The translations under genes and the position numbers were made by a program. Below the pieces are notes generated by a model that was not told where the DNA came from, did not search any database, and was given only the letters and a program-made list of their open reading frames with translations. A stretch of DNA of 53,206 nucleotides from Gemmatimonadota bacterium (GTDB taxonomy: Bacteria; 4572-55; J002): positions 1 through 53,206 of the forward strand of contig RFFQ01000185.1 of the NCBI GenBank assembly GCA_003697105.1. The letters are read 5' to 3'. Shown one piece after another: positions 6,696 to 50,644 of the stretch (within the stretch, counting starts at the first letter, position 1; each line of letters opens with the position of its first letter).

Positions 6696-8006
6696 ATGTC
6701 GCGACCCCGGATATTAGTTGTCGATGATGACCCGCATCTAGTGCGATTGGTTGTCTCCACTTTGGGAATGGCACATTACGAAATTGTGAAAGCATTTTCC
6801 GGAAAAGAGGCGTTGCAAAAAATTGAGGAATTTCACCCGGAACTGGTAATCCTGGATGTGATGATGCCTCATGTAAACGGTTACGAAGTTTGCGAACAGA
6901 TGAAAGCAAATGTATTTACCCGCCATACACCGGTCATCATGCTCTCTGCAAAAAAAAATGTGGAAGACCGGGTTACTGGGTTGGAAATTGGGGCAGATGA
7001 CTACATGGTCAAACCGTTTAACCCGGTGGAGCTGCGAGTTCGGGTCGAATCGCTGCTCCGCCGGAGTACGGAAACACTGGACGCCAACCCCATCACTCAT
7101 TTGCCGGGCAATGTCTCCATCGAGCGTGAAATTATCCAGCGCATCAAACAACATCCAAAATTTGCGTTTTGCTATGTAGACCTCGATCATTTCAAGGCAT
7201 TTAACGATAAATACGGGTTCTATCAGGGTGACCAAATTATCCTATTGGTCGCCCGGATTTTGGAAAAGTCGATTCGGGAAAAAGGGAATCCCACCGATTT
7301 TATCGGGCACATTGGCGGCGATGACTTTGTATTCATCACCACCCCCGACCGGGTCAAATCCCTATCGCAGGCGATTATTACGGAATTCGATAGCCGGGTA
7401 CCCGAATTTTATGATGAAACAGACCGGCAACAAGGGTTTATTATTAGTCAAAACCGGCAAGGTCTGGTTACGCGGTTCCCGATTATGACCTTGACAATTG
7501 TTGCGATAACCAATGAACAACGGGAGATCACACACCCCGCGGAAATCAGTGCGATTGAAGGGGAATTGAAAGCCTATGCCAAAAGTTTGGAAGGTAGTAA
7601 CTATGTTATTGATAAACGGAAAGAGAAGGTCATTAATAAAGAATATCATAAGTTCATCAAAATTTTAATCCTAGATACTGAAGTCCGCCGGGCACGGTTA
7701 CGGAAGTTACAACTGGAAGGTGAAAATTACACCGTGGCGCTTGCCCAAACTGCCCGGGATGCAATTTCGCTGTTGGAAGAACAAAAACCCAGTGTCGTGC
7801 TGATTGAAAAGGACGTACCGTTTATGGACGCCTACGAACTAAGCCACTATATCAACAAAAACCCCCATTTACAAAAAACACCGGTAATGGTAATGTCCAA
7901 CGTGATGATGATCGAAAAAGACCCCCAATCTGATTATATTGATTACTTTACCAAAAAGATCAAGTTAGACGAACTTTTGGATACCGTGCGGGGGATATTG
8001 GAGTAA
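6696..8006 (+). CDS. Response regulator with GGDEF domain and C-terminal pseudo-receiver
   Basis: A 436-residue cytoplasmic protein with three parts. The N-terminal receiver (1-120) has D10-D12, phosphoacceptor D54 and K in VKPF, so it looks functional. The central GGDEF-type domain (about 130-300) has NPITHLPGN, the YVDLDHFKAFND strand and a signature GGDDF at 207-211. This is close enough to consensus to allow diguanylate cyclase activity, though the sequence after it is unusual. The C-terminal receiver-like fold (about 320-436) has Glu (E371) where the phosphoacceptor Asp should be and lacks the normal acidic cluster, so it is probably a pseudo-receiver or a constitutively 'on' mimic. The small membrane protein at 8013 starts 6 bp later and may be its partner. 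No kinase is adjacent. Confidence 0.88.
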   Translation: MSRPRILVVDDDPHLVRLVVSTLGMAHYEIVKAFSGKEALQKIEEFHPELVILDVMMPHVNGYEVCEQMKANVFTRHTPVIMLSAKKNVEDRVTGLEIGADDYMVKPFNPVELRVRVESLLRRSTETLDANPITHLPGNVSIEREIIQRIKQHPKFAFCYVDLDHFKAFNDKYGFYQGDQIILLVARILEKSIREKGNPTDFIGHIGGDDFVFITTPDRVKSLSQAIITEFDSRVPEFYDETDRQQGFIISQNRQGLVTRFPIMTLTIVAITNEQREITHPAEISAIEGELKAYAKSLEGSNYVIDKRKEKVINKEYHKFIKILILDTEVRRARLRKLQLEGENYTVALAQTARDAISLLEEQKPSVVLIEKDVPFMDAYELSHYINKNPHLQKTPVMVMSNVMMIEKDPQSDYIDYFTKKIKLDELLDTVRGILE

Positions 8007-23713: not shown

Positions 23714-23789
23714 TGGAGCCGATGAGCGGACTCGAACCGCTGACCTATTCATTACGAGTGAATTGCTCTACCAACTGAGCTACATCGGC
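23714..23789 (-). tRNA. tRNA-Thr (CGT)
   Basis: Acceptor GCCGATG/CATCGGC, anticodon stem ATTCA/TGAAT, loop CTCGTAA with anticodon CGT; CCA is encoded. It is the last of four tandem tRNAs on the minus strand. Confidence 0.95.
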
Positions 23790-23805
23790 AGTTGACTTGC
23801 CCGAT

Positions 23806-23881
23806 TGGTGGCCCGGACCGGAATCGAACCAGTGACACAGGGATTTTCAGTCCCCTGCTCTACCTACTGAGCTACCGGGCC
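23806..23881 (-). tRNA. tRNA-Phe (GAA)
   Basis: Acceptor GGCCCGG/CCGGGCC, anticodon stem GGGGA/TCCCT, loop CTGAAAA with anticodon GAA; discriminator A and encoded CCA. Confidence 0.95.
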
Positions 23882-23896
23882 CCAAAGGCAAAAAAA

Positions 23897-23973
23897 TGGC
23901 GGGGTCGACGAGACTCGAACTCGCGGCCTCTTGCGTGACAGGCAAGCGTTCTAACCAACTGAACTACGACCCC
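23897..23973 (-). tRNA. tRNA-Asp (GTC)
   Basis: Acceptor GGGGTCG/CGACCCC, anticodon stem CTTGC/GCAAG, loop CTGTCAC with anticodon GTC; discriminator G, as expected for tRNA-Asp, and encoded CCA. Confidence 0.95.
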
Positions 23974-23993
23974 GCTAAATTTTCACGGTAAGC

Positions 23994-24070
23994 TGGTGGG
24001 CGATAGAGGGCTTGAACCTCTGACCCCCTGCTTGTAAGGCAGGTGCTCTGCCCAACTGAGCTAATCGCCC
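23994..24070 (-). tRNA. tRNA-Val (TAC)
   Basis: Acceptor GGGCGAT/ATCGCCC, anticodon stem CCTGC/GCAGG, loop CTTACAA with anticodon TAC; discriminator A and encoded CCA. It lies only 21 bp after the stop of the small membrane protein at 24092, separated by a short hairpin (GATTTC/GAAATC). Confidence 0.95.
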
Positions 24071-24489: not shown

Positions 24490-24518
24490 TTGACACCTTT
24501 TAACATCTCTGGTAAGAT
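24490..24518 (+). promoter_or_regulatory. Promoter of the STAND-like ATPase gene
   Basis: Consensus -35 TTGACA (24490-24495), a 17-bp spacer and -10 TAAGAT (24513-24518, 4 of 6). It leads into a leader of about 65 bases and a very strong AAGGAGGAGG ribosome site at 24577-24586. Confidence 0.65.
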
Positions 24519-24588
24519 CAATAAGGACTATGTTTGGATTTTCGTGTTGGTTATAGGATCGATTTTGTTAGCTTTTAAGGAGGAGGCA

Positions 24589-27500
24589 ATGTCCAACCTT
24601 GTGAATCCGTATGTCACCGGAACACCGTTGACTTCGGAAAATGCGTTTTATGGGCGAGAAGACATTTTTCAATTTATTGAGAATGCGCTTCAAAACCCGT
24701 CCCAAAACCTAATTGTCATTTATGGGCAACGGCGCATTGGGAAGACCTCCATTTTGAACCGGTTACCTCACCGGTTGGCTGGAACCGATTGTCATGTGGT
24801 GTCCTGCTCCTTGATGGGGAAAGCACATTATTCAACGTCCCAAATTTTAGCTCATATTGCGCGGACCATTGCCGAAACCGTCGCTGGTATAGACCTTCCG
24901 GTCGAAGCATCGTTTCGACAAGAGGATTATTTTCGGCGAGAGTTTCTACCGGCAGTTTTTGACCATTTATCATCTTCTCGTTTATTGGTAACGTTTGACG
25001 AGTATGATGAGTTTGGGACAGAACCTCTCCAATTACCCAACTCTGCCTACCGCACCTTGTTTCCATATCTTCAGACTCTGCTCCAATCAGAAAAGCGGCT
25101 GGTTCTGCTTTTCGCGTTAGGGCATCGAATCGAAGAGTTGCCTCCACTCCATCACGGCTTTTTCAAATCTGCTTTAGTGAAAGTAGTACCGCGGCTTTCA
25201 CCCGATGAGGCGAGACGCTTGATCTCTCAAGCCGTTTCAGAAGTGTTTACCTACGATACCTCTGCCCTGAAATTGATCTGGAAATTGACCGCCGGACACC
25301 CCTACTTTACCCAACTAATTGGCTCGGAGGTCTTTAAGTTGGCGCAACGGGAGGGGTTGAGTATTATCAATGCCGATCACGTTCATAGCGTGCTGCCAGC
25401 GGCAATGGAAAGTGGTGAAGCGGCGCTTGCGTGGATGTGGGATGGGTTGTCCCGTTCCGAACGGATTGTGTTTTCGGCGATGGCACACGCGGCTGACGAA
25501 GATGGCGTAGCGACGCTACAGGATATTCGGAGTTCCTTAAAAACGTACCATATCCGGTTGCTGGAAACCGAGATTTCCAACGCACCGAAACACTTGACCG
25601 AAATTGGGATGTTAGAAGCCGTTTCGGAGGATACCTACCGGTTTATTGTCGAATTTTTGCGCGGTTGGGTTTTCTTCAAATACCCTCTGGAAAACATCCA
25701 CCGCAATATTGATCGCGAAAATCAGCGAGCCAACCGCTATTTTGAAAATGCACGGGAAGCCCACTTGGATGGCGAATTTGAATTGGCAATAGAAGATTAC
25801 CGGCGTGCCCTGAAAGCGAATCCGGATCATCTGGGTGCCCGATTGGGGTTGGCACAAGCACTCTATGAACTGGGGGATTACCGCGATGCCATTGTGGAGT
25901 ACAACACGGCATACCAATTAGATGCGCAGGCGGCGAAAGATGGCTTGATTTCGGCACAACTCAAATATGCCACCCAATTGGAAGGAAAGCAAAATCAAAC
26001 GGAAGCAATTGAACTGTACCATCAGGTTTTAGACATCTCACCGCACGAACGGCGCGCGATCTCGCGCTTAAGTGCCATCTGGATGAGTCAAGCACGAAGT
26101 GCGCTCTTAAATAATCATTTTGATGAGGCGATGCGCCACGCCCAGCAGGTGCTGGAAATTGATCCGGATAATCTTATCGTCCAGCAATTAATGGATGAGA
26201 TCAAAGCCCAACAGAAGCAATACCAGATTAAGCAGTTAGCCAACCAAATTGATCGCCTTCAAACCGAAAAAAATTGGGAGTCGCTCCAGAGCCTCTACCG
26301 TCAATTGATTGACTTGGAACCGGATAACCCAATTTGGAGTGAATCTTTAGCAGACGTTGAGCAAGAAATCCGGCTAGGGCAATTATATCAGGAAGCAAAA
26401 ACGGCCCATGATAACGAAGAGTGGGCACGAGCCGAGGCGCTTTGGGCTCAGTTGTACCGCGAAAAAACAACGTATGTCGGGCACGATGGTATCGAAACGG
26501 CAATTCTTTTTGCGCAAGCGATTCTCTCCCGCCGCGGAAACCTCCTTCCCAGCGGCATGTCTTCAGAACAAATTCAGGAATTGAACGCTCAGATTGCTCA
26601 ACTCGAAACTGAAAATGCCACGTTGCGGCAGGAATATAATCAAGCTCAGACCCAACTCGAGCAACTTACTCGTGAAAACCGGCATCTCAATGGTAGAATT
26701 ACGTCGCTCGAACAAACGGAACACCACCTTGCCGAACTCCAAACAACCGTGACACGGTTAACTCAAGAGCGTGACGAAGCGTTATCCAGAAAAGCGGCTG
26801 TGGAGGAACAACTTGCCGAATTAACTGCTAAAGTGGAACAATTGACCACTGAAAACGCAACCTTGACCTCGCAAACCCAGCAACGTGATGAATGGGAACT
26901 CCGCGTTCAGGAATTAGAAACCGAACTCGCCGAACGGACAACGGAGCGTGACCAGCTTCAGGCGGCAAAATTTGAATTAGAACAGCGCCTTCAAACCGCC
27001 GGTACCCAACAGCAACGCCTCGAGGAACTGACCCAAGTGCTCCAATCAGTTACGGCAGAACGCGACACCGCACAGGAACAACAACACACCTTGCAACAGC
27101 AGATTTCGGAATTACAACAAGCTCAGGAAACCGGTGTGGCTACGCAAACCCAATTAACCACCGAACTTGAAACCCTGAAAACCCGTGCCGCCCAGATGGA
27201 AGATGCGTTGAATGCCGCAATGACGGAACAAAAAGAGCTTCGCGACCAGCTTGAACAAAAAACCGCCGAATTGCAAGCACTTCAGTCCAGTTCAAATCAG
27301 GTGGCAGTCCTACAAACTCAACTTCAGGAAAAACAGACGGAAATTGATACCCTCCACCAACGTATTCTGCAGTTGCAACCGCTTCAGGCATTACTCGACC
27401 AAAAATCGCATGAAATTGAACAACTTCAAGCCGAAATCCAAGCCTTAAAAACCGCTGATGCGGAAGAAAAAACCAATTATGAAAATCAGGTGGTCTCTCT

Positions 27501-28932
27501 TAAAAGCGCGTTACAAGAAAAAACGGAGGAGACCACTACCCTCCAAAAACGGTTAGATGAATTAGAAGCTCAGGTGGAAACGCTCATGCAAGTGCCGGAA
27601 GGGACTCACATGATTCAATCCACGGATGAGCCGGATTATCGCGATTTTACTGCCGAAACGGAAGTACCTCCTTCTGCGCCATCGGTTGAAGCGGATTTAT
27701 TTGATGCGCCGCTCGATACTTCTCCCCTTAAAGAGACTTCGAGTGATTTTTTTGAAGACCATACCGGGTTTGAAGAACAAAATCTAACCGAGGATTATGA
27801 TTTTGAACCGGCGGCTTCGACGCCATCCGATACCATTGAAACCGCAGATTTTGAAGAACAAGAATTAGATAGTTTTGAGATGGATGCTCCGCTAACGGGA
27901 ATCCCGGCGGAACCGGAACAGGCTTTTGAACTGGATTTTGATCCCACGTCTGGAGTAGAGGCACCCGCAAGTCCCAGTGTGGAGGAGTTAGACTTTGAAA
28001 CCGGTAGTGATTTCGGCGTTGATACCGGATCACCCGCATCATCCGCCGTTGAAGTCGCTCCGCTACCCGGAAAAGATTTTGATTTTATGTCCGATAGTTT
28101 CGCGGAGGACATGGCAGATGAACCCGATGCGCCGACTCTTACAGAACCGGCGTCATCGGCGTTTGAATTTGATGCCGAAACGGGGTTTGAAGACCTCACC
28201 GTGGGAGATACACCGGCAGAAACCGCATTTGAACCGGAACAAGACGCCGGTTTTGAAGATATTCCGATAAGTGATGATACCACCTTTGGTGAGCAAGCGT
28301 TTGAATTTGATATTACCTCCGGTTTTGAAGGAGATTCATTTGCGGCGGAAACATCTGTTGGTGATGTGGATGCAGGGTTTGAAGACCTCCCTGTAAGCGA
28401 TGATATCCTCATTGATGATTCCGGTTTTGGTCTGGATGATAGCGCTGACGTAACGGATGATCAGCCCGATACGACTTATGCCGGGGCGGCGTATGCCGAA
28501 GGCGTGGCAGACCTGGAAGAAATGGAATTTATGACCGTTGATGACCTGTTCGATCATGTGTCCGCATTCACCGAAGGACTGGTTATGTACAACGAAACCC
28601 GTGATTTTGGTGTGTTTGAACGTATTTACACAGAAATGGACCATCTGGAAACCCTAGCTCAAGTCGGTGAATTTCATTCGGTTAGTGAACTCTCCAGTTT
28701 AACCAAATCGATTTTGTACCGGCTCCATATTGGCGAGTTGGTTTTAGATGATGAACTGTTGGATGCACTTCATGATGCCGCCGAAGCGTTGACCAATTTG
28801 ATTTCCGGATTGATCGGCGAAGAAGATATTGACGATGAATCAATTATGCAGGCGATTCGGGAGCGATTCCGCGATGTACTGGCAAATTATGACACCGGTG
28901 AAGATGATTTTGAAGATTTAGTGGTAGGATAA
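24589..28932 (+). CDS. Large STAND-like ATPase with TPRs, long coiled coil, acidic repeats and a C-terminal HPt-like domain
   Basis: A 1447-residue cytoplasmic protein; the start is fixed by AAGGAGGAGG before the ATG at 24589. Residues 1-370 form an AAA+/STAND-type NTPase: FYGREDIF box, Walker A GQRRIGKT at 46-53, Walker B LLVTFDEYDEF at 132-142, and a winged-helix-like part. About 380-540 (possibly to 640) are TPRs (AREAHLDGEFELAIEDYRRAL). About 660-1005 are an uninterrupted Gln/Glu/Leu-rich coiled coil. About 1005-1300 are acidic, Phe/Glu/Asp-rich and disordered-looking, with a recurring FED[LI] motif. The last about 140 residues are helical and resemble a CheA-P1/HPt fold, with H1352 near the phosphoacceptor position, but the flanking K-G residues are missing. 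No partner gene is adjacent. The exact role is unknown; the layout suggests a scaffold or signal-transducing hub. Confidence 0.85.
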   Translation: MSNLVNPYVTGTPLTSENAFYGREDIFQFIENALQNPSQNLIVIYGQRRIGKTSILNRLPHRLAGTDCHVVSCSLMGKAHYSTSQILAHIARTIAETVAGIDLPVEASFRQEDYFRREFLPAVFDHLSSSRLLVTFDEYDEFGTEPLQLPNSAYRTLFPYLQTLLQSEKRLVLLFALGHRIEELPPLHHGFFKSALVKVVPRLSPDEARRLISQAVSEVFTYDTSALKLIWKLTAGHPYFTQLIGSEVFKLAQREGLSIINADHVHSVLPAAMESGEAALAWMWDGLSRSERIVFSAMAHAADEDGVATLQDIRSSLKTYHIRLLETEISNAPKHLTEIGMLEAVSEDTYRFIVEFLRGWVFFKYPLENIHRNIDRENQRANRYFENAREAHLDGEFELAIEDYRRALKANPDHLGARLGLAQALYELGDYRDAIVEYNTAYQLDAQAAKDGLISAQLKYATQLEGKQNQTEAIELYHQVLDISPHERRAISRLSAIWMSQARSALLNNHFDEAMRHAQQVLEIDPDNLIVQQLMDEIKAQQKQYQIKQLANQIDRLQTEKNWESLQSLYRQLIDLEPDNPIWSESLADVEQEIRLGQLYQEAKTAHDNEEWARAEALWAQLYREKTTYVGHDGIETAILFAQAILSRRGNLLPSGMSSEQIQELNAQIAQLETENATLRQEYNQAQTQLEQLTRENRHLNGRITSLEQTEHHLAELQTTVTRLTQERDEALSRKAAVEEQLAELTAKVEQLTTENATLTSQTQQRDEWELRVQELETELAERTTERDQLQAAKFELEQRLQTAGTQQQRLEELTQVLQSVTAERDTAQEQQHTLQQQISELQQAQETGVATQTQLTTELETLKTRAAQMEDALNAAMTEQKELRDQLEQKTAELQALQSSSNQVAVLQTQLQEKQTEIDTLHQRILQLQPLQALLDQKSHEIEQLQAEIQALKTADAEEKTNYENQVVSLKSALQEKTEETTTLQKRLDELEAQVETLMQVPEGTHMIQSTDEPDYRDFTAETEVPPSAPSVEADLFDAPLDTSPLKETSSDFFEDHTGFEEQNLTEDYDFEPAASTPSDTIETADFEEQELDSFEMDAPLTGIPAEPEQAFELDFDPTSGVEAPASPSVEELDFETGSDFGVDTGSPASSAVEVAPLPGKDFDFMSDSFAEDMADEPDAPTLTEPASSAFEFDAETGFEDLTVGDTPAETAFEPEQDAGFEDIPISDDTTFGEQAFEFDITSGFEGDSFAAETSVGDVDAGFEDLPVSDDILIDDSGFGLDDSADVTDDQPDTTYAGAAYAEGVADLEEMEFMTVDDLFDHVSAFTEGLVMYNETRDFGVFERIYTEMDHLETLAQVGEFHSVSELSSLTKSILYRLHIGELVLDDELLDALHDAAEALTNLISGLIGEEDIDDESIMQAIRERFRDVLANYDTGEDDFEDLVVG

Positions 28933-28974
28933 CGGTGCAGCTCATTTCCTGAGACCAACAGGATGAACAAACAA

Positions 28975-29005
28975 ACGCCGGTCTATTAACTAGACCGGCG
29001 TTTTG
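28975..29005. terminator. Bidirectional terminator between convergent genes
   Basis: An 11-bp perfect stem, ACGCCGGTCTA (28975-28985) with TAGACCGGCGT (28991-29001), then TTTTG on the + side and a T-containing tract on the minus side. It serves the large ATPase gene and trxA. Confidence 0.85.
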
Positions 29006-33992: not shown

Positions 33993-36284
33993 TCATGTTT
34001 TGGCAAATTTAGTGGCTAACTCATTGTCAATCACATAGATACAAACTTCTTTAGCTCCCTGTTCTGTGTAGGCATATTTGGTACAAAAATTTTCAATAAG
34101 GTAACTCACGTCATCGCGGATACGCTTATCGTGGGCTTTAAACGCATCGGTATTGTAGTCTTTAATCGCTTGCCGGAAATTCTCATTGTCAAGGAACGGA
34201 TCCAGCGCTTTTTCTTTCAGATTGTAAACGTAGCGATCATATAAAGATTGGAATAGCGCGGTTTCGTTTATCGATTTACCTTCGGTCATGATTTCCTGAG
34301 TTAAGGTCTGGGTGGTGTACTCTTTTTGGGTTGTTTGGCGGAACGATTGGCGGGTTTCCCGGCTGACATTTGCTCCGAGCAAGCGGTTTTCGATGCTTTC
34401 CAGAAAGGATTCCGTAATTTCCAGTTTTTCGCCGGTATAAATGCATGTTTCGGTGGCGCCGATTTCAAAATTAGTCGCAAATATGTAATTTTGAATATCT
34501 TTGGCGATACGATCCTCGTTATAGTAATAGAGTGATTCCTTGACTTCTTGCAAAACGGCGTAGTCATACATCCGGACCAGCGAATCTAGGAAGCCTTCTG
34601 GGATGAGCGCACTGAGGTCTTTGCGGGTTTTGGTGAAAAAGTCGTACAACGCAGACATATTGATCAGGCGGTCTTCACGGGCATAAGTGGAGTAAAATTG
34701 GTTAAAAATCTTGATAGAATCTCTTCCTGATAAGCCGCTCTTACCTTCGGTTTCGGATTCTGTGATCACACTGCGCCGGCGTTTCGCCGTGAACCGGTTA
34801 CGGTCTTCTTCGGTTAGCCAACCGGGGATATGGCCGGTAAAGATTTCCATTTTCAGCAAAAGCAGGTTTTCATCACAATAGAGGCGATATTTTTTGGGGT
34901 CACCAATCCATTCGATCAGGGCATCGGAATGCTTATTAAGGCGCGTGGCGATGATGACCCGGGCGAAGTTGTGTAACACACGTGGTAAGAAATTTCGGTC
35001 GATGTATTTCCCAAAAATATTGCGGTAGATTTCCACTTCCGTGTTTAGATCAAGCACATAATTGATATTGATGTACTCGATCCGGTCAGAAAATGACTGG
35101 AAATCTTCAATTGTTTTTTTGTCTTCGGGATTCATCAAGGCGATAAAGAGTGAAGTCACATTTTCTTCAATTTCACCGACTTTGTGGACACCTTCGCTGA
35201 TGATGTTGTGCAATTCGAGCAGGCGGTCCACATTGTGTGATTTTACATCCATCAGGGCATAGATGCCGTTGTTGGTCTTAGCGTAGCGAGAATAAATATA
35301 TTTTACCTGATTGCTGTCCCGAAAAAGCGTATTGATCTGGTTTTGAAGCATGGGGTTGGTATGAATGTGTTCCTTACTGGGTTTATCACCCGGATTGAAC
35401 ACACTAATTCCCTCACCTAATCGCCGGTTGTGCATGTAAGGACGGACATAAATTGCCTCAAAAACCTTTTGGGGACTTTTGAGTTTATTCAAAAGCGAGT
35501 GATACAGCGAGGTGCAGATAGTGCATGCGTTATCCCGGAAGACCCAGTTATACTCTTTATCGGTAAATAGATGAAACTTAAATTCGTTATTTTCCAATAG
35601 ATGATCGAAAAAACCTCGTCGGAGTTCTTTCGGGATCATTAGTAGCGGGTGGTCATGGGAAGGACATGGAATTTCAATGTAATATTCTGACATAAATGAT
35701 CCTGCCATGGGCGGCATGATGTCATTAGAGGACATGGGATCGGCACTGAAATCTGTGAGTTGCTGTGCCAAAGGTTTTCGATCGGCTTCAGTGAAACGGT
35801 TTACCATCTGGCGGTCGATTCGCCAGACGGTTTCGTAGCGTATTCCGGCATCTGTGCGAGTATATTCCTCAAATTTCCGTAATAAGTTGTTGAGAAATGT
35901 ACTCTTACCGCACCCGTAAGGTCCTTCAAAAATATAAAGTTTATTTTGTTGCGCGCCCCGTTTAAGGGCATCCACATGGTTGACAAGCCGGTTTGCAAAA
36001 AGCCGGTCTGCAAAAAACGGATTATCAGACCCTTCCACAAAGAGCCGGTTGCAATCATAAAAGACAAAATGAATCGATTCGGGGTCGTTAGGATACTCAT
36101 CAACACCTTCGGAGAGATACGTCTTGATCATGTCGTGGAAAACCTGAAACACATTACGGATGGTGGCTTGCGGTTTTTCCAACAAAATCTTTAGAAAATC
36201 CTGAAACGAGATCGGGAAACGCTGCCCTCGTTCATTCACACTCTGATCAAGGTATTGAATAGCATTGTTGATATGGTCGCTCAT
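33993..36284 (-). CDS. Second PrkA-like AAA+ ATPase/serine kinase
   Basis: A 763-residue member of the PrkA group. Helical N-terminus; P-loop EGPYGCGKST around residues 120-129; the PrkA-type segment CPSHDHPLLMIPKELR (compare CPxHEEPLxLIP in PrkA); a Cys pair in NACTICTSLY; the AAA+ sensor region DRIEYININYVLDL; and a long C-terminal helical part. It is longer than classical YeaG/PrkA (about 640). It is divergent from the first copy at 39532, so the two are not a recent duplication. It is last in the prkA1-DUF444-spoVR unit, separated from spoVR by a repeat-rich 183-bp gap. Kinase activity is a family property and not proved by motifs here. Confidence 0.85.
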   Translation of the reverse strand: MSDHINNAIQYLDQSVNERGQRFPISFQDFLKILLEKPQATIRNVFQVFHDMIKTYLSEGVDEYPNDPESIHFVFYDCNRLFVEGSDNPFFADRLFANRLVNHVDALKRGAQQNKLYIFEGPYGCGKSTFLNNLLRKFEEYTRTDAGIRYETVWRIDRQMVNRFTEADRKPLAQQLTDFSADPMSSNDIMPPMAGSFMSEYYIEIPCPSHDHPLLMIPKELRRGFFDHLLENNEFKFHLFTDKEYNWVFRDNACTICTSLYHSLLNKLKSPQKVFEAIYVRPYMHNRRLGEGISVFNPGDKPSKEHIHTNPMLQNQINTLFRDSNQVKYIYSRYAKTNNGIYALMDVKSHNVDRLLELHNIISEGVHKVGEIEENVTSLFIALMNPEDKKTIEDFQSFSDRIEYININYVLDLNTEVEIYRNIFGKYIDRNFLPRVLHNFARVIIATRLNKHSDALIEWIGDPKKYRLYCDENLLLLKMEIFTGHIPGWLTEEDRNRFTAKRRRSVITESETEGKSGLSGRDSIKIFNQFYSTYAREDRLINMSALYDFFTKTRKDLSALIPEGFLDSLVRMYDYAVLQEVKESLYYYNEDRIAKDIQNYIFATNFEIGATETCIYTGEKLEITESFLESIENRLLGANVSRETRQSFRQTTQKEYTTQTLTQEIMTEGKSINETALFQSLYDRYVYNLKEKALDPFLDNENFRQAIKDYNTDAFKAHDKRIRDDVSYLIENFCTKYAYTEQGAKEVCIYVIDNELATKFAKT

Positions 36285-36297
36285 GAAAATCGTTTTA

Positions 36298-36391
36298 ATT
36301 TAGGGTTTAGGGATTAGGGATCAGGATTTAGGGATTCGGATTTAGGGATTAGGGATCAGGATTTTAGAATTTAGGGATTAGGGTTTAGGGG
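36298..36391. repeat. TTAGGG-like degenerate minisatellite
   Basis: About 94 bp built from TTAGGGA/TTTAGGG/ATCAGGA units. An exact 24-bp copy occurs at 36306-36329 and again at 36341-36364 (period 35 bp). It lies immediately upstream of the prkA2 start on the minus strand. Confidence 0.8.
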
Positions 36392-36402
36392 TTCATGTAA
36401 TT

Positions 36403-36470
36403 CCCAAACTCCCGAACTCATCAAACTCCCCAACTCCCGAACTCGTAAAACTCCCGAACTCCCGAACTCA
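36403..36470. repeat. AACTCCCG tandem repeat overlapping the spoVR stop
   Basis: About 68 bp of imperfect AACTCCCG / AACTC units, at least seven copies, read on the minus strand as GAGTTCGGGAGTT. The last unit supplies the TGA stop of spoVR (36468-36470). Confidence 0.75.
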
Positions 36471-38081
36471 CTTGAGTATCCGGCGTCCTAACCGGCGGTC
36501 ATGCATAGTGTACAGTACGTGTTCCCATTGGATTTGGGGTTCTTCATCGTCATCGGAGTCGGAGATAGAAGCTACTTCATGGGTTTCTAACTGGACAGGT
36601 CCTCCCCACAAGAATTCGACCCCGATCATCGTGTTTTTGATAAATTCCGTGACCAGAGGTTTTCCTTCAAAATGATGGATCAGATAGAGGGTTTCTTCAT
36701 CACCTTTTTCGGGATCGACTTCGATGAATGGGGGGTGATAAAGTGAATTTAGCAACATTCGTTTGTAATCTTCGGCATTCCGGCTCTGGACGTAATATTC
36801 CCATACCATACGGTCTTCGTTCAAGCGTCGTCCTGCCACGAACAGGTTGTTTTGAGTTACGAAATCTTGGTCCACAAAGGTATCAATAAAAGTATCATCG
36901 CAGAAGGATTCACGCACTTTGAAGATGAATTTCCGTCCTTCATGGGTGTGTTGGTTATAGTGTTCACGTTCGTAGCGGTCGGTCAATTTTAGATAATCCC
37001 AGGAGCGTTTGCCGCGATTGACATAATCCTCGATGTAATAAAAGAGGCGCAATCCCAAGGCATACGGATTCAGACCGACTCGAGGTAAAGCCGTTACCCC
37101 TGCGTTGATACGGGCAAAATCGACTTCGTGCCCGCGAATCCGATCATCCTGCATAAATAACGTTTCATGCCAATAACTTGCCCAACCTTCATTCATAATT
37201 TTGGTACGAATTTGGGGTTGGAAGAAGATCGACGTTTTACGGACAATCTCCATCACGGATTTCATCCACAGGTTGTCTTCTTTGTTTAAAAATTCAGAAT
37301 GATCCATCAGATATTGGAAGATATCTGTCTTGCGCTGGGGCTTTTCTTGCAAATGTTTTTTAAAAAGGGCTTCAAATTCAGGATATTTTTTATCAACCTC
37401 CGTGAAGAAGGTCTGCACACCCAAGTTATCGTGGGCACTTGTTACTTGATTATAGCGATTGATTTCCTCCAGATACTCGCTGATTTTCACCTGCTTGATG
37501 TCCTGCAGAAACCGGTCAAAATAAAAATCAAGGCGTTGGGTATAGCGGGTTTTGTGCGGGCGGTCTGTACGGGAAAGTTCCGTAAAAAACCCCACCAGAT
37601 TATCCAGCCCGCGCGAAAATTCGATCACATAATCGACCCAACGTCCTTTTTCGGAGCGTAATTTGGCAATAAGCCGTTTATCGGAAAGGGCTCTTCCGGT
37701 AAAATCATAATCCCAGGTGTGGCTAAAAAAGAGGTTATTCTGGAAGAAGTCAATGTGTCCTAACACGTGGTAAAAGATCATCACATTGAGCCAATCGGGG
37801 TTATTATCATTATAAAACGAGATTGCCGGGCGGGTGTTAATCACCGTTTCGTAAGGGTTATGGGGGTACAACTCATACTTCCCTTTTTCTCGCAGGACTT
37901 CTACATCATGTACCCAATAGTCGTACAGGGTTGGGATCATATATTTGGGAGAGAGTTCCAGCAAGTCGCGGTTTGTGACGATATACTCCAGACTTTCGTC
38001 CTCAAAGCGCAAGCCGGCATCCCGAGCCCGTTCTTTACACCCTTCCATAATTTTTTTGGTGTGTTGATCGATAAGTTCCAT
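36468..38081 (-). CDS. spoVR: SpoVR-family protein (YcgB-like)
   Basis: A 537-residue cytoplasmic protein of the SpoVR/YcgB family: PKYMIPTLYDYWVHDVEV near the start, MIFYHVLGHIDFFQNNLFF, NEGWASYWHETLFMQ, and NPYALGLRLFYYIED. The histidine/glutamate-rich motifs are invariant in the family and could bind metal. The role is unknown but linked to stress, stationary phase and, in spore-formers, cortex formation. The length fits E. coli YcgB (about 510). It is co-transcribed with DUF444 (16 bp gap) and PrkA upstream. An acidic insertion near the C-terminus (SISDSDDDEEPQ) is unusual. Confidence 0.92.
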   Translation of the reverse strand: MELIDQHTKKIMEGCKERARDAGLRFEDESLEYIVTNRDLLELSPKYMIPTLYDYWVHDVEVLREKGKYELYPHNPYETVINTRPAISFYNDNNPDWLNVMIFYHVLGHIDFFQNNLFFSHTWDYDFTGRALSDKRLIAKLRSEKGRWVDYVIEFSRGLDNLVGFFTELSRTDRPHKTRYTQRLDFYFDRFLQDIKQVKISEYLEEINRYNQVTSAHDNLGVQTFFTEVDKKYPEFEALFKKHLQEKPQRKTDIFQYLMDHSEFLNKEDNLWMKSVMEIVRKTSIFFQPQIRTKIMNEGWASYWHETLFMQDDRIRGHEVDFARINAGVTALPRVGLNPYALGLRLFYYIEDYVNRGKRSWDYLKLTDRYEREHYNQHTHEGRKFIFKVRESFCDDTFIDTFVDQDFVTQNNLFVAGRRLNEDRMVWEYYVQSRNAEDYKRMLLNSLYHPPFIEVDPEKGDEETLYLIHHFEGKPLVTEFIKNTMIGVEFLWGGPVQLETHEVASISDSDDDEEPQIQWEHVLYTMHDRRLGRRILK

Positions 38082-38097
38082 ATTATAACCTTTGGAT

Positions 38098-39474
38098 TTA
38101 TGAAATCAGCGAGCGAATCCCTTCAATCAAACGGCTTTCATTGGCGTCATTTGGCACAATATCCAAGCGGAGCAAATCTGGGTGTTCTGCCAGCAGTCCG
38201 GATCGCTTCAGGTATCGTTCCACTTCAGAGTTATAGCTGCTGGAACGGCGCCCCCGGTCGGCGATTGTGATTCCCACCCGGTTGGCGTAAGTGAGCATCT
38301 GTTTTAATTCGGGTAGGGATTCTTTACCGTCGGTATCCCAGTCGTCACCATCCGTGCCGTGGAAAATGTAAATATTGTAATCTCGGGCGAGGCTTTCATC
38401 CGCTACGATTTTATTGACCAACCGGTAGGCCGAGGCAACCTTTGTTCCACCGGCAACACGGGAATTATAGTAGGTATAAAAATCTTTGACCTCGGTGGCG
38501 TCCGTGTCGTGCAGAATAAACCGGGTTTCCACCTGTTTTTCGTACTGGTAAAGCAGCCAACTGTAGATCAACACATGCTGCGAGACGACCAATTCGGTGG
38601 GTTTACCAAACATCGAACCGGAATAGTCCCGCACAAAAAAGACCAATGCTTGAGATTCGTAATCCTGTTCTTTGGAAAGAATCCGGTAAATTTTATCATC
38701 TGGGGCAATCAAAAATGAGGTAGAGTCGATGTTTTCGACATCTTTCACATTACCCAGATGGATATTGGTTTCAAGGACTTTTTTCAGGGTTGCTTTTTTG
38801 TCTAAAATTTGGCCAAATCCGCGGTGACGGTCGGTCATTTCATAGGTGAAGCGGGTCAATACGCGCTTTTTGCCTTTATCTTTTAGATTTGGCAACTCGA
38901 ATTGTTCGGTTAGGATCCGCCCGAGGTCATAGGCGTTGGATTCCATCTCATGGGGTCCGGCGGAGCCTTGCCCCGGACCGGCACCGGAGCCTCCATCTTG
39001 CGGGCGAACCGGTTGTTCACCAATGACTTCACCTTCCTCACCGGTACCGGAGCCGCCAAAGGTCTCATCATCTTCCGGTGGACGGATGGAATCATGAATA
39101 AATTTTTCTTCCACTGTGGTGGGGACAATAACAATTTTCTCTTTACCCCCTTTGCCGGGTTTGATCAGGCGTCCGACCCGAATTTTACGCGGGAAGCCAT
39201 CTTTTTCGCGTTGTTTGTCCCGTTCCAGTAATTCATCAATTGAGCTTAGATACACATGATAATTTCCATGGGGGGTTGTCATTTGTTGCAAAAAGGTGAG
39301 GTCATTATAGTCATAAATCCCAAGGGTACGTTGCGTTGCCAACGCGGGCAAATCCGGTTCGATAACCTCATGGGTTAGACTCCCCTGTAATTCGGTTAGG
39401 ATGTGCTTCTCTTGTTCGGGGGTCAGCCGCTCTTCCATTTTGAGGTGTTGGTAATATTCGTGGGCTGAACTCAT
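38098..39474 (-). CDS. DUF444 (YeaH-like) von Willebrand A-type protein
   Basis: A 458-residue protein of the YeaH/DUF444 family. The vWA-type metal site DYSGS is at residues 283-287 and the later HGTDGDDWDTDG loop completes it. An N-terminal basic/helical part and a Gly-Ser-Gly-rich linker (about 140-170, GGSGAGPGQGSAGP) precede it. In Enterobacteria YeaH is co-expressed with the kinase YeaG under nitrogen and stationary-phase stress. AAA+ plus vWA pairs (compare MoxR/vWA) commonly act as remodelling machines, which suggests a PrkA-DUF444 complex. The ATG at 39474 follows AAGGGG. Confidence 0.92.
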   Translation of the reverse strand: MSSAHEYYQHLKMEERLTPEQEKHILTELQGSLTHEVIEPDLPALATQRTLGIYDYNDLTFLQQMTTPHGNYHVYLSSIDELLERDKQREKDGFPRKIRVGRLIKPGKGGKEKIVIVPTTVEEKFIHDSIRPPEDDETFGGSGTGEEGEVIGEQPVRPQDGGSGAGPGQGSAGPHEMESNAYDLGRILTEQFELPNLKDKGKKRVLTRFTYEMTDRHRGFGQILDKKATLKKVLETNIHLGNVKDVENIDSTSFLIAPDDKIYRILSKEQDYESQALVFFVRDYSGSMFGKPTELVVSQHVLIYSWLLYQYEKQVETRFILHDTDATEVKDFYTYYNSRVAGGTKVASAYRLVNKIVADESLARDYNIYIFHGTDGDDWDTDGKESLPELKQMLTYANRVGITIADRGRRSSSYNSEVERYLKRSGLLAEHPDLLRLDIVPNDANESRLIEGIRSLIS

Positions 39475-39531
39475 GGATGTTTCCCCTTAATTGGTGTTGT
39501 GGGGGGCAGGGGTTGCCGTGTCAGATTGGGT

Positions 39532-41592
39532 TTACTTTTCATCTTCTTGGGTGCAAAAATATTCAATGGTTTTTTGAGCGCAGGTACGGCAGTAACCCAG
39601 TTTATCAAGCATGGTTTCGATCATCCGGTCATATAATTTTTGGTTTTCTTCATTGGTTCGATTTGCCAACGCGCCGATCAGGCTCCCCGCGCCGGCAATA
39701 TCGGACTTCAAGCGGACGTCGGTTACGGCTTTGACCAGTTCTAGGTTGTCCATAAAGTCATAATTGGGATCCACCGATAGTTTTTGTCCGTAAATTTTGC
39801 GGATAGAGGTGCGGAAGGTCTCCCGCCGTTCTTGAGTTTTTAGCCCTAATCGCTCTTCTACGCTTTGGATGTATCGTTCATCAATTTTGAGCGCTCGTAA
39901 TTCCCCGGTTTGGGGGTCTTTGTATTTCCACATTTTGTCGGCGCCCAAATTATCCGCATCAATTCCGATGATCATGTTGACATAGCTCATTACATCTTTG
40001 CGGATGGCGTGGGGTTCATCCATATAGGCGTTGAACATCTCGGTCATGATTCGTTCGCGGTATAATCCTTTAGCGATCTTCAAATCTTCCAAATACTTAA
40101 TGCGGTCATTGGCTTCGGAGACATAATCCAAAATGATGCGTTCAATCGCTTTGAAAATGTCGTAGGCAAACATGCACTGACCTTCATTGGTTTCGGAACT
40201 TTCGACTAATAACTGGATGGCACGACCCAAATTCCGTTGTCCCAGCCCTTTTTGCCCGAAACGTTTGGTAATATCAGGATTTTGATTTAGGGTATCGATC
40301 ACTTCCGCCAACGTTTTGATGCTTTTTTCACCGGCAACTTCACCGGCGGCGAGTTTAAGCGTTTCCACCGGAGTTAATTTTTCGGTATGGGGAAGGCGGG
40401 TGAGGACTACGGCGACCGAGGCGGCATAGTTGAGGTTCGGGTCTTGGTGAAGCAAATCGCGATTGAAGGTTGTCCGGGTTTCGCTTCCGATGGCGTAATC
40501 CGTTAAATCTTTTTGCAACTTGTAGTTGGTATTGTGGGACACATAGCAAATCCGGCAGCGATCCACAATGGGGGCTTCTTCTTTTTCCGCTAAAAAGCGA
40601 TTAAATTCCGAGTTGTTACTGGTGGCGATAATCAACGTATCAATGGGCCACTTGAAGCCATCTAACTCAATGGTGCGGTTTTGAATAACCCCTAAATAGA
40701 CTTGCACCAAATCCTTTTTGTTTTTGTAGATTTCATCGCTGAAGTGGATTCCACCTCCCGCGACCCGTGCCAGAGCACCGCGCCGCAAATCAAACCGGTA
40801 GGGGTTATTGGTATCCGTGATGTGAAGCAAGCGTTGGATGGATTCCTCTCCCAGCAAGTCCACGGCGGAAGAGGTAATTTTATCTTTCGCAGAGTATTTA
40901 CCGGTGACCGTTCCCAGACTTTCGGTGAGGGGCACCGGCACAACCTCTACAAATTCCAACATCTTGTCAATTTCATCGCCGGTATATTCCCGGATATCAT
41001 TCCAGATATAATCGCTACAGGCGCCCAACGGGCGGTAATTTTGGTACATCTGTTCCAACTGGGCATCGGAAAATCCAATGGTTTTACTGAGATAGGTGAG
41101 GTTATCGTCCCGGAACGGGAACAGATTCATTGCCAGAATCATCGGGTCTTCATATGTTTGGGACTCAATGGTTTTGATACGCCCGTAATTACCCAGTTTA
41201 TCCATGTTGACAAAGCGAAAGGTGTACTTGCGGTTTTTCTCATCGTATAGAAAGCGGCGGTACGCCGAGCAAAGAAATTCCACAAAAAAGGTCTTGCCGT
41301 TCCCCGGTTCTCCGACGAACACAAACGCCATTTCCGAAGAAGACCCTCCTTCGGCGGCATCTTTTACATAAGAGACAAAACTATTAATTTCCTCATACAT
41401 GCCGATGATGTGCTTTTTGCCTTGCCGGAAAAGACCGAAATCGTAGGTTGTTTTGCCATTGACGACCACTTTTTCCACGCCAGATTCCAGAATCATACGG
41501 GAAATGGCTTGAAAGGCATTTTCAAACGCTCGTTCCCCTTTTTTGACTTGATCTAAGTGATAATGCAGTGTTTTAAAGGAATTATTTGCCAT
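39532..41592 (-). CDS. prkA: PrkA-family serine protein kinase (YeaG-like AAA+)
   Basis: A 686-residue AAA+ kinase. The N-terminal helical region carries KVVVNGKTTYDFGLFRQGKKHIIGMYEEI, Walker A GEPGNGKT is at residues 94-101, and the PrkA arginine/sensor part TLIIATSNNSEFNRFLAEKEEAPIVDRCRICYV follows. The C-terminal PrkA domain has LGRAIQLLVESSE and the DEPHAIRKDVMSYVNMIIGIDADNLG region. The ATG at 41592 (GGGGAAA upstream) is chosen over an in-frame start at 41628. It is the first gene of the leftward unit prkA1-DUF444-spoVR-prkA2. A sigma-70-type promoter and a CRP/FNR-like dyad lie about 160-220 bp upstream. Confidence 0.92.
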   Translation of the reverse strand: MANNSFKTLHYHLDQVKKGERAFENAFQAISRMILESGVEKVVVNGKTTYDFGLFRQGKKHIIGMYEEINSFVSYVKDAAEGGSSSEMAFVFVGEPGNGKTFFVEFLCSAYRRFLYDEKNRKYTFRFVNMDKLGNYGRIKTIESQTYEDPMILAMNLFPFRDDNLTYLSKTIGFSDAQLEQMYQNYRPLGACSDYIWNDIREYTGDEIDKMLEFVEVVPVPLTESLGTVTGKYSAKDKITSSAVDLLGEESIQRLLHITDTNNPYRFDLRRGALARVAGGGIHFSDEIYKNKKDLVQVYLGVIQNRTIELDGFKWPIDTLIIATSNNSEFNRFLAEKEEAPIVDRCRICYVSHNTNYKLQKDLTDYAIGSETRTTFNRDLLHQDPNLNYAASVAVVLTRLPHTEKLTPVETLKLAAGEVAGEKSIKTLAEVIDTLNQNPDITKRFGQKGLGQRNLGRAIQLLVESSETNEGQCMFAYDIFKAIERIILDYVSEANDRIKYLEDLKIAKGLYRERIMTEMFNAYMDEPHAIRKDVMSYVNMIIGIDADNLGADKMWKYKDPQTGELRALKIDERYIQSVEERLGLKTQERRETFRTSIRKIYGQKLSVDPNYDFMDNLELVKAVTDVRLKSDIAGAGSLIGALANRTNEENQKLYDRMIETMLDKLGYCRTCAQKTIEYFCTQEDEK

Positions 41593-41753
41593 GGTAATTT
41601 CCCCTTTCGGTTGGGGTGGAAGATTCACGAGGTGATCGTAAAATATAATGACGCAAATTTGAGGCTGAATTGCAGAAAAATAGTATTAACCCGATCTTTT
41701 ATGCTGTTTTTTGCCGTACCGGCGGTGGGTTTTAGCTAAATGGCGCGCTCTAA

Positions 41754-47639: not shown

Positions 47640-48734
47640 ATGAACATTTTTGTTCGGATTATCAAAAAAATATTGCCCAAAGGGGGGTTCTATCGCCCGA
47701 AACTACTGACGGTGTTGCTGGTTTCGGTGGGGTTAAATGTTGCCTTTGGCATCGCCTTCTATTTTGCCGAGCGGCATCTTCAGGAAGGGTTGACCCTGAC
47801 CGATGCTATCTGGTGGGCAATGGTCACGATGACCACGGTTGGATACGGCGATATTTATGCCCAAACCGCCGTCGGGCGATTTTTAATTTCGTATCCCTGT
47901 ATGGTGATCGGAATCGGTATTATCGGCTATCTGGTCGGAATTGTGGCGGAGTCGGTTTTGGAATCGATCTCGCGCCAAAAAAAGGGGTTGAAAGCAATTA
48001 CCATGAAAGACCATATCATCATTTGTAACTGCCCGCAGGTTGAAAAAGTGGTGCGGTTGGTGGACGAATTATCTTATGACCCAACCGGAAAAGACCGGCA
48101 ATTTGTCTTGATTACCGAACGATTTGAGGAACTTCCGGAAGCGTTACATCATGCGAACATCAAATTTGTCAAAGGCGACCCCACCAAAGAGGATGTTTTA
48201 CAGCGGGCGAATATTTTGAAATGTGCCGGCGTGTTTGTTCTGGCAGAGAACCCGTCAGATGTGGCTTCAGACCACAAAACGTTTGCTATCGGTACCATCA
48301 TCGAAATGATTGAAAAAGAGCACCAAGTCCCCATCAAAACCGTCGTGGAACTGGTCACAAAAGAAAACCTGAAAATGATGCAGCGCACCCACGTGGATGG
48401 GATCGTCTCGGTGGACGGCATTATCAATTGCCTGATGGTGCAGGAGTTCCTCGACCCCGGGATTCATGATGTGGTGCATGAACTCATCAGTAACAAAACC
48501 GGTAGTGAATTTTATACCTTAACGACCCGGTTGACGGGGTTCACGGTGGGTGATATTCAAAAAGCCACCTGTGATGCGCCGCAGAACGTGCAGTTGATCG
48601 GCGTGATTCGCCACGGGGAACATCTGCTAAACCCTGAAAAACAGTTTAAAATTGAAGATGGCGACCGGTTGGTCATCCTTGCCCCCCAGCGTACTGATTT
48701 TGAACGGATTGAGCAAAAGATGTTAGGGTACTAG
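47640..48734 (+). CDS. Two-transmembrane K+ channel with RCK (TrkA-N/TrkA-C) domain
   Basis: A 364-residue ion channel: TM1 (about 22-43), pore helix, selectivity filter TTVGYGD at 65-71, TM2 (about 82-105), then a cytoplasmic RCK ring domain (about 118-250) and a TrkA-C domain (about 275-364, EFYTLTTRLTGFTVGDI...DRLVILAP). The nucleotide-binding loop of the RCK is HIIICNCPQVEKVV, in which the usual GxGxxG is replaced by CNCP, so NAD/ATP binding is doubtful and gating may respond to another signal (metal, redox or protein). Otherwise it is the MthK-like layout. It is the last gene of the four-gene unit. Confidence 0.93.
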   Translation: MNIFVRIIKKILPKGGFYRPKLLTVLLVSVGLNVAFGIAFYFAERHLQEGLTLTDAIWWAMVTMTTVGYGDIYAQTAVGRFLISYPCMVIGIGIIGYLVGIVAESVLESISRQKKGLKAITMKDHIIICNCPQVEKVVRLVDELSYDPTGKDRQFVLITERFEELPEALHHANIKFVKGDPTKEDVLQRANILKCAGVFVLAENPSDVASDHKTFAIGTIIEMIEKEHQVPIKTVVELVTKENLKMMQRTHVDGIVSVDGIINCLMVQEFLDPGIHDVVHELISNKTGSEFYTLTTRLTGFTVGDIQKATCDAPQNVQLIGVIRHGEHLLNPEKQFKIEDGDRLVILAPQRTDFERIEQKMLGY

Positions 48735-48758: not shown

Positions 48759-49406
48759 TTACGCCCGGATTCGCCGCCGGGAGGTGATCCCCTGTTTTTT
48801 GAGCCCGACGTTTTGCAAGACACGCTCGCAAATCGCCCGGTATGTCTCTTCTACCCCCACGCCTTGTTGGGCAGAGGATTCAAATACGTTTTTGAGAGCA
48901 AGCGCCGGATTTAGGGCATTTCGCAGGGTGAATTTGGGGATGTTATGCGGTAGGTCGATTTTATTGACCTGTAAAATTAGAGGGGCTTCCAATTGAAGCT
49001 CATCCATTGCCTGTTGCAATTCTTGGAAACTTTCAATATTGTCATTTAAACGATCCGCTTGGGAGTCCGCTACAAAGACGATGCCATCCACTCCACGCAA
49101 CATCTGGCGCCGGGTGGCGGCAAATGCCATCTGCCCGGGTACACTGTACGTTTGGAATTTGACCTGAAAGCTTCCGACAGTCTCCTCCAGCGGTAAAAAA
49201 TCAAAAAAGCGGGTGCGACCGCTGTACTGGCTTTGTTCCGTGTCCATATTAATCGCCAAGGCGATCAATTTTCCGGTTGGGTTGTACATTGATTGCGGTA
49301 CTTTTTCAGCTAATTGTTTTAGGTTGGTGGTCTTACCACTCAGACCCGGACCATAATAAACGATTTTGCAAATGACCTCTTTCTTCTGGTAGTTGATCAT
49401 CGACAT
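48759..49406 (-). CDS. MglA-like Ras-superfamily small GTPase
   Basis: A 215-residue GTPase: P-loop GPGLSGKTT (19-27), switch II region VPGQMAFAATRRQMLRGVDGIVFVADSQ and NKIDLP, as in MglA. MglA sets cell polarity and drives gliding/twitching motility; related GTPases regulate other processes. The expected partner MglB (roadblock) is not adjacent. The ATG at 49406 starts the conserved MxMINYxxKEVxxKIVYYGPGLSGKTTN, which is the family start; upstream in-frame residues overlap the divergent glycosyltransferase gene. The C-terminal RRRIRA tail is basic. Confidence 0.93.
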   Translation of the reverse strand: MSMINYQKKEVICKIVYYGPGLSGKTTNLKQLAEKVPQSMYNPTGKLIALAINMDTEQSQYSGRTRFFDFLPLEETVGSFQVKFQTYSVPGQMAFAATRRQMLRGVDGIVFVADSQADRLNDNIESFQELQQAMDELQLEAPLILQVNKIDLPHNIPKFTLRNALNPALALKNVFESSAQQGVGVEETYRAICERVLQNVGLKKQGITSRRRIRA

Positions 49407-49462
49407 TCGTATTTCCCCCCCAACTGAGTTCCTTAAATACCACCTCACACGTTTTACATCCG

Positions 49463-50644
49463 ATGAATGAACATAATGCGCAAGTGGTGATTGATCAAGA
49501 TAAAACGACACGCCTTTCGATTTGTATGACGGTCATCGGAGAATTAACCCATGACCAGCGGGTTTTCCGCGAGGCACACTGTTTACAGCAGGCGGGGCAT
49601 CAGGTGCATATCATCGGTGGTACGAGCAATCCGAACAAAATTCCAGAAGATTGGGGCGACATCACCATTGAATATCTCCAATTACGGGCGGCGCGGGGTA
49701 AAAAAATGTACGCAGAGCATGCGCTCAAGCTGTTGCACCGGCTGGCGACCCTCGATATGGATGTGATTCATTGTCACGATCTGGATACACTGCTTGCCGG
49801 GGCCATCATGGCCAAATTACGGGGTAAAAAGTTGATTTATGATAGTCATGAACTTTTCCCGGAACAAGGTTCGCTGGCAAATCGCCCGCGCGAGCGCAAA
49901 ATATGGGGGATGTTGGAACGGCTTCTGATTCACCTGCCGGATTGGATTATTACGGTCAATGACTCGTTGGCAGAAATCATGGCAGAGCGATACCATGTTG
50001 AACCACCGACCCCCATTCGCAATATCCCGGACGGACAGGTTAGGGAACGAACCAACCGGTTGCGGCAAAAAACCGGTCTCTCTCCGGCGCACAAAATCGT
50101 CCTTTACCAAGGACAAATGATGCCCGGACGCGGGTTGTTCACCCTGATTGAGAGCATCCTGAAGTTGCCAGATGAGTATGTGTTGGTCTTGTTGGGTAAA
50201 GGGGGGTTAATGCCGGAACTCCGCCGGCGTGCCGCCTTGCATCCCCCAAAAATTCGGGTTCTGGATGCGGTGCCTTTTGCCGAATTGCTCTCGTACACCG
50301 CATCTGCCGACATCGGTATATGCTTGATCGAAAACATCAGCACCAGCTATTATTACGCGTTGCCCAACAAATTTTTTGAATACATGATGGCAGGTCTTCC
50401 GGTGATTGCGAGTAATTTCCCGGAATTTGAACGCATCTTTAAAATATTCCCGTTTGGCGTTACGGTTGACCCGAGTGACGCCGACGCCGTGGCTCAGGCA
50501 ATCCGTGCCATTGGAGAGAATCCGGCGTGGCAACAGGAACTTCAAACCATCGCTCGATCCGCGACAACAGTTTATAATTGGCAGATGGAGCAGAAAAAAT
50601 TATTGGATATTTATAATCGTCTGTATTATACTTCTCAGAAATAA
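49463..50644 (+). CDS. GT4-family glycosyltransferase
   Basis: A 393-residue GT-B-fold retaining glycosyltransferase. The N-terminal domain has MTVIGELTHDQRVFREA and IYDSHELFPEQ (acceptor side). The C-terminal nucleotide-sugar domain has VLYQGQMMPGRGLFTLIESI and ISTSYYYALPNKFFEYMMAGLPVIASNFPEF, the E-X7-E-like GT4 signature. It likely adds a sugar to a surface polysaccharide or lipid. The specificity cannot be read. It is divergent from mglA (56 bp between the starts) and precedes the HEAT-like gene. Confidence 0.9.
   Translation: MNEHNAQVVIDQDKTTRLSICMTVIGELTHDQRVFREAHCLQQAGHQVHIIGGTSNPNKIPEDWGDITIEYLQLRAARGKKMYAEHALKLLHRLATLDMDVIHCHDLDTLLAGAIMAKLRGKKLIYDSHELFPEQGSLANRPRERKIWGMLERLLIHLPDWIITVNDSLAEIMAERYHVEPPTPIRNIPDGQVRERTNRLRQKTGLSPAHKIVLYQGQMMPGRGLFTLIESILKLPDEYVLVLLGKGGLMPELRRRAALHPPKIRVLDAVPFAELLSYTASADIGICLIENISTSYYYALPNKFFEYMMAGLPVIASNFPEFERIFKIFPFGVTVDPSDADAVAQAIRAIGENPAWQQELQTIARSATTVYNWQMEQKKLLDIYNRLYYTSQK

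Follow-up and report, generated by a model that had tools for sequence, protein, structure and literature searches.

A STAND-TPR-coiled-coil protein of a Gemmatimonadota bacterium ending in a predicted pseudo-HPt, a probable docking scaffold for chemosensory partners

What is an HPt-like helical bundle doing at the end of a STAND-type NTPase, and does it take part in a phosphorelay? The question is raised by the gene at 24589-28932 (+) on contig RFFQ01000185.1 (assembly GCA_003697105.1) of a Gemmatimonadota bacterium. The window, meaning the whole stretch of DNA analysed, has a length of 53,206 nucleotides. The gene product has 1447 amino acids (aa). In the original prediction it was read as a large phosphorelay hub using H1352 or, if this histidine is not used, as a scaffold. 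The present analysis favours the scaffold: the protein probably uses a pseudo-HPt to dock, in the style of FimL, on proteins that partner a chemosensory hub. The domain order first read from the sequence, NTPase, TPR, coiled coil, acidic region and helical domain, is confirmed by motifs, Pfam and structural models. The features of the gene are as follows.

24589-28932 (+): gene of the 1447-aa protein; intact open reading frame of 1447 codons without internal stop.
24589-25413 (+): STAND-type AAA+ NTPase core, aa 1-275; motifs, AAA_16 match just below the cut-off, AlphaFold2 (AF2) model with Foldseek.
25414-25713 (+): winged-helix region 3' of the NTPase, aa 276-375; AF2 helices and a beta wing at 342-352.
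25714-26553 (+): TPR superhelix, aa 376-655 (Pfam TPRs at 395-530); Pfam above cut-off, PDB TPR matches, AF2 helix pairs.
26554-27618 (+): long coiled coil, about aa 656-1010 (~355 residues); heptad periodicity, matches of SMC/filament type.
27619-28524 (+): acidic low-complexity linker, aa 1011-1312 (about 300 residues); composition.
28528-28884 (+): predicted pseudo-HPt (degenerate CheA P1 type), aa 1314-1432; hub-repeat model, profile, AF2 with Foldseek.
28639-28641 (+): D1351, aligned to the phosphoacceptor His of CheA; comparison with 12 true HPts, HMMER alignments.
28642-28644 (+): H1352, one column past the acceptor (occupied by T or S in the true HPts); same comparison.

The C-terminal domain has the CheA-P1/HPt fold originally assigned to it, by sequence profile as well as by predicted structure. 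The AF2 model consists of five helices (pLDDT 94.3, pTM 0.87) and contains the four-helix up-down bundle of this family. Foldseek, proposed earlier as the check, returns CheA P1 at TM 0.73-0.84 and probability 1.00, with modest E values of about 2e-3 to 2e-2. The domain escapes Pfam Hpt. A profile from an alignment of degenerate HPt domains and the query (A2), which contains no true HPt, finds CheA P1 structures in the PDB (2lp4, 8e-7; 2ld6, 1.5e-6; 1tqg, 3e-6).

The nearest relatives of the domain are the four degenerate HPt repeats R2-R5 of a CheA/ChpA-like hub encoded in the same genome. When the whole protein is searched against its own genome, aa 1314-1429 match two stretches of the hub protein on contig C176 (E 6.5e-10 and 1.7e-6). 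A model of the four hub repeats, from which the query was excluded, scores the domain at 62.1 bits (maximum of 1000 shuffles, 12.2) and the other helical parts of the 1447-aa protein below 0. With the A2 model, strong matches in the genome are the hub and the 1447-aa protein only; CheAs are marginal. The class comprises two genomes here, this one and one relative. In the HPt tree a 99/99 branch has the C-terminal domain, hub R2-R5 and the hub domains of the same-class relative on one side and true HPts, hub R6 and hub R1 on the other; long branches restrict any finer reading. From this grouping, the dead-HPt class probably arose before the two genomes diverged, and the gene at 24589-28932 probably captured one of its members.

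Phosphotransfer was considered on the basis of the catalytic columns. In 12 true CheA HPts these hold H (12/12), K (12/12), G (12/12), H (11/12) and E (12/12). The query has D1351, E1354 and T1355 in place of H, K and G of HxxKG, and in the second helix S1370 in place of His and K1373 in place of the catalytic Glu (CheA E70). HMMER alignments to T. maritima and enteric CheA yield the same register, with D1351 at the acceptor. H1352 is adjacent to the acceptor position, as first suggested, and one residue off it; as a phosphoacceptor it is rejected, the register being shifted and all five catalytic columns replaced. The missing K-G that had been remarked on is likewise real, and the loss extends to the acceptor His, the second-helix His and the catalytic Glu. 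Neither the hub repeats nor the same-class relative has His at the H1352 column, and non-conservation of H1352 is the outcome that had been named beforehand as refuting a relay.

A phosphorelay hub, in which H1352 or another residue takes phosphate and passes it to receivers while the NTPase tunes the process, is consequently highly improbable. It can draw on a true CheA-P1-type fold, on a histidine one residue from the acceptor column and on receivers encoded 18-22 kb away in the window; it is opposed by D1351 at the acceptor, by the replacement of K, G, second-helix H and catalytic E, by the absence of H1352 from every hub repeat and by the failure of Pfam Hpt to detect the domain. The receiver proteins cited as nearby (1657, 6696) are both real: one, recognised by sequence, lies at about 1636-2028, the other, recognised by Pfam, at 6696-8006. 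They belong to other transcription units about 20 kb off, the gene is apparently monocistronic, and they carry no weight. Judged by its residues, the C-terminal domain is a pseudo-HPt, predicted to be unable to carry phosphate. The fold is predicted to be kept (pLDDT 94) though the catalytic residues are lost, and the bundle is therefore retained for something other than phosphotransfer. With the acceptor and the other catalytic residues gone, the scaffold alternative of the original prediction is favoured.

The hub is probably encoded in two parts, L039 1-3165 (-) on contig C176 and L082 1-2034 (+) on contig C80. The C176 protein carries five degenerate HPt repeats without acceptor His and one, R6, with HTLMGSA. 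C176 ends in frame inside a long array of the acidic repeat EQPALEDEFLAAES; C80 starts in the same repeat and runs into a CheA-like C-terminus. An exact overlap of the C176 and C80 ends was looked for and not found. The two are probably one gene, for a protein of >1700 aa, split by the acidic repeat. In the hub ATPase domain the N box (EPLLKIMVADIE in place of DPLVHLIRNSADHGIE) and the G2 loop are lost, and only CheW passes Pfam; the hub looks like a pseudo-CheA, largely catalytically dead. A homologous hub with at least three dead HPts is present in the same-class genome (contig C39, L074 3-5708, -); the gene just upstream of it encodes an MCP-like, coiled-coil membrane protein of 720 aa that has no match in Pfam.

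Contig C56 (L083 2249-6929, +) encodes in a row a dCache MCP, a CheA in which P1 is missing and the ATP-site motifs are intact, and two CheWs, with RodZ next. This arrangement points to a split CheA that works in trans, and trans phosphorylation of hub R6 by it is conceivable. Such a CheA must phosphorylate a P1 in trans, and its gene adjoins those of the MCP and the two CheWs; both points are compatible with a decoy, in which the pseudo-HPt occupies the ATPase domain of this kinase as a pseudosubstrate and lowers its output. Direct evidence for this pairing is absent and a simple inhibitor needs no long scaffold, which makes the decoy distinctly unlikely. ATPases of type IV pilus/type II secretion type are encoded in the genome; by such gene content, a role of the 1447-aa protein in surface motility is possible.

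The N-terminal half is of STAND type. The NTPase contains Walker A (G46-QRRIGKT53), Walker B (D137-E138, of the form hhhhDE), a conserved GxP (GHP, 236-238) and a winged helix C-terminal to the core. The motifs are invariant or nearly so across four homologues from the same genome and the one same-class relative. Pfam AAA_16 scores 30.7 bits, 2 bits short of the cut-off of 32.6; it is therefore the motifs and the fold that support the STAND family name. For aa 1-552, the AF2 model (mean pLDDT 85.9, pTM 0.63) has Foldseek matches to Orc/Cdc6, to the STAND-like ATPase SSO1545 of archaea and to the nucleotide-binding domains of the plant NLRs NRC3 and Roq1; the Orc/Cdc6-like match spans about 390 columns and reaches into the winged helix. 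The NTPase starts at about aa 20, with no N-terminal effector domain ahead of it. Across the coiled coil the heptad z is mostly 2-5 against shuffles. DUF4196 and SMC/Rad50/TMF identities were dropped, the matches being sub-threshold and reflecting coiled-coil composition. The linker (aa 1011-1310) contains 29% D/E and 1% K/R and repeats the motif F-E/D-[DFLEI], with 11 occurrences against 3.5 in shuffles.

The STAND-TPR module is reused with other C-terminal parts, as listed below for two relatives.

L098 14163-16961 (+): STAND-TPR-FGE-sulfatase fusion in a single chain, in a genome of another phylum.
L040 3502-9444 / L085 1441-4842: STAND-TPR with a giant coiled coil, then an FGE gene.

The second is the C22 paralogue, 1980 aa, without pseudo-HPt tail, followed by a coiled-coil-transmembrane-PKD-FGE gene. 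A further paralogue, on contig C40 (L041 3087-6332, -), has the order TPR-TPR-STAND and a receiver-like insert inside the NTPase, probably degenerate (Response_reg 2e-4, below cut-off; weak PDB matches including FrzS). The gene next to the C40 paralogue fuses nSTAND2 to a Ser/Thr kinase.

Variable C-terminal modules of this kind agree with an NLR-like conflict or sensor STAND, whose TPR and C-terminal domain would sense an attacker on, or a mimic of, the chemosensory system and whose NTPase would oligomerise on recognition; STAND-based conflict systems are described in multicellular prokaryotes (PMC7159879, PMC10907252). Membership among anti-phage STANDs (Avs and others) is rejected: PADLOC gives no convincing match, only weak coiled-coil and short NTPase scores, and the N-terminal effector is lacking. 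The neighbouring genes are housekeeping genes, and the C-terminal module derives from a signalling hub of the host itself. A conflict function is accordingly rated unlikely, less so than the decoy.

Docking is the best explanation because the HPt bundle is well formed, devoid of catalytic residues and copied from a signalling hub. Two precedents are known. FimL, of the Pseudomonas/Acinetobacter Pil-Chp system, carries Gln at the two acceptor sites of its HPt-like domains and shares homology with the N-terminus of ChpA (PMC3019171). It binds PilG and FimV, helps to bring PilG to the pole and, with FimV, tethers PilG near the Chp system (PMC10519157). FrzS of Myxococcus joins a pseudo-receiver to a coiled coil; the SgmX that it binds is a TPR protein (PMC11580455). 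In view of FimL and FrzS, a scaffold gathering the partners of the hub under ATP control is therefore proposed.

The likeness to FimL, which is held to act by binding and not by phosphotransfer, lies in an HPt-like domain without acceptor His that is derived from repeats of the organism's own ChpA-type kinase; drawn from published descriptions, it is one of working alike. No STAND NTPase, TPR or coiled coil is described in the FimL chain. FrzS with SgmX, both polarity proteins, shares the pseudo two-component domain, long coiled coil and TPR protein; FrzS has a pseudo-receiver and no ATPase, whereas TPR, coiled coil and pseudo-HPt are united in one chain here. To CheA P1/HPt the C-terminal domain is homologous by fold and profile, while all five catalytic positions are lost and the domain falls under Pfam Hpt detection. 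With the C176/C80 hub, of the ChpA/PilL-type multi-HPt CheAs, the protein shares the pseudo-HPt class and acidic linkers; the dimerisation and ATPase domains of a CheA, and a CheW domain, are absent from it. Walker A/B, GHP, winged helix and TPR superhelix are shared with STAND NTPases (MNS/NLR-like, SSO1545-like), from which it differs in lacking an N-terminal effector and in its C-terminus of coiled coil, acidic linker and pseudo-HPt.

Architecture, fold, common ancestry with the hub repeats and the loss of the catalytic residues are established computationally, while ATP switching, the identity of the partners and the scaffold role are proposals. In the proposed mechanism the protein would be a cytoplasmic scaffold. 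NTPase and winged helix would form a nucleotide-driven switch, either on/off or of oligomerisation; the TPRs would bind a partner, the coiled coil would act as a spacer and multimerise, and the pseudo-HPt would be presented on the flexible acidic linker. The latter, a copy of the degenerate hub repeats, most likely competes for or recruits the partners of the hub. Candidate partners are CheY-like receivers, the CheA ATPase domain or the hub itself. In this way the scaffold would gather the chemosensory apparatus or set its place, an effect comparable to that of FimL on PilG/ChpA in Pseudomonas.

Several points weigh against docking on hub partners. The gene looks monocistronic and has no operon partner. 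No orthologue of the 1447-aa protein, with which a docking surface could be compared, is found in the single same-class genome. The link to the hub rests on the common ancestry of one domain, and a copied domain can gain new partners. The hub is taken to be one gene over two contigs, and ATPase activity and binding of the protein are predictions.

The pseudo-HPt and STAND-TPR models were run against sets of 145 and 386 genomes. No second protein of this architecture, STAND-TPR with pseudo-HPt tail, is found among the 386 genomes; the STAND-TPR module itself occurs at E 1e-15 or better in five genomes, this one included. The pseudo-HPt matches examined outside the class are nearly all CheA-type frames with HxxKG. 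Neither the whole protein nor the STAND-TPR alignment retrieves a confirmed relative from the contig collection. A literature search of an incomplete collection finds no described case of STAND combined with HPt.

Pseudo-receivers are well recognised; pseudo-HPts are known from few cases, e.g. FimL and the ChpA repeats. In this genome a pseudo-HPt captured by a STAND scaffold stands beside a second STAND (C40) bearing the degenerate receiver-like insert. If the docking scaffold is real, two-component domains would act as docking modules by which chemosensory arrays are joined to NLR-like ATPases, and a testable set of partners follows from the gene: the hub, the P1-less CheA and CheY-like receivers. 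A wider and more doubtful possibility is that STANDs of this lineage are wired into an array with a pseudokinase CheA, and that ATP-driven STAND assembly gates or positions the array. No coupling of an NLR-like ATPase switch to chemosensory signalling is described in the literature searched.

The gene is surrounded by the following signals.

24577-24586 (+): good ribosome-binding site AAGGAGGAGG, 5' of ATG 24589; read directly from the sequence.
24490-24518 (+): promoter-like TTGACA-17 bp-TAAGAT with TG ahead of the -10; consensus scan.
28973-29003 (no strand assigned): 13-bp bidirectional terminator-like hairpin after the stop, between the gene and the convergent gene.

The mechanical open reading frame call starts at TTG 24490. 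This codon overlaps the promoter-like site, hence ATG 24589 is the likely start and TTG 24490 is likely spurious. Promoter-like sites in the region number 12 against 7.0 expected, so that the site by itself is weak evidence. The gene lies between four tRNA genes of the opposite strand (23714-24070) and a convergent block and is for this reason probably monocistronic; its neighbours therefore offer no hint of function.

Elsewhere in the window, 48759-49511 (-) encodes a small Ras/Arf-like GTPase resembling the polarity GTPase MglA, adjoined by a K+ channel/RCK gene at 47640-48734. PrkA-type kinase genes and neighbours that resemble SpoVR and YeaH form a cluster at 33993-41628 (-), of the PrkA stress type, in which a second AAA protein is encoded at 39532-41628.

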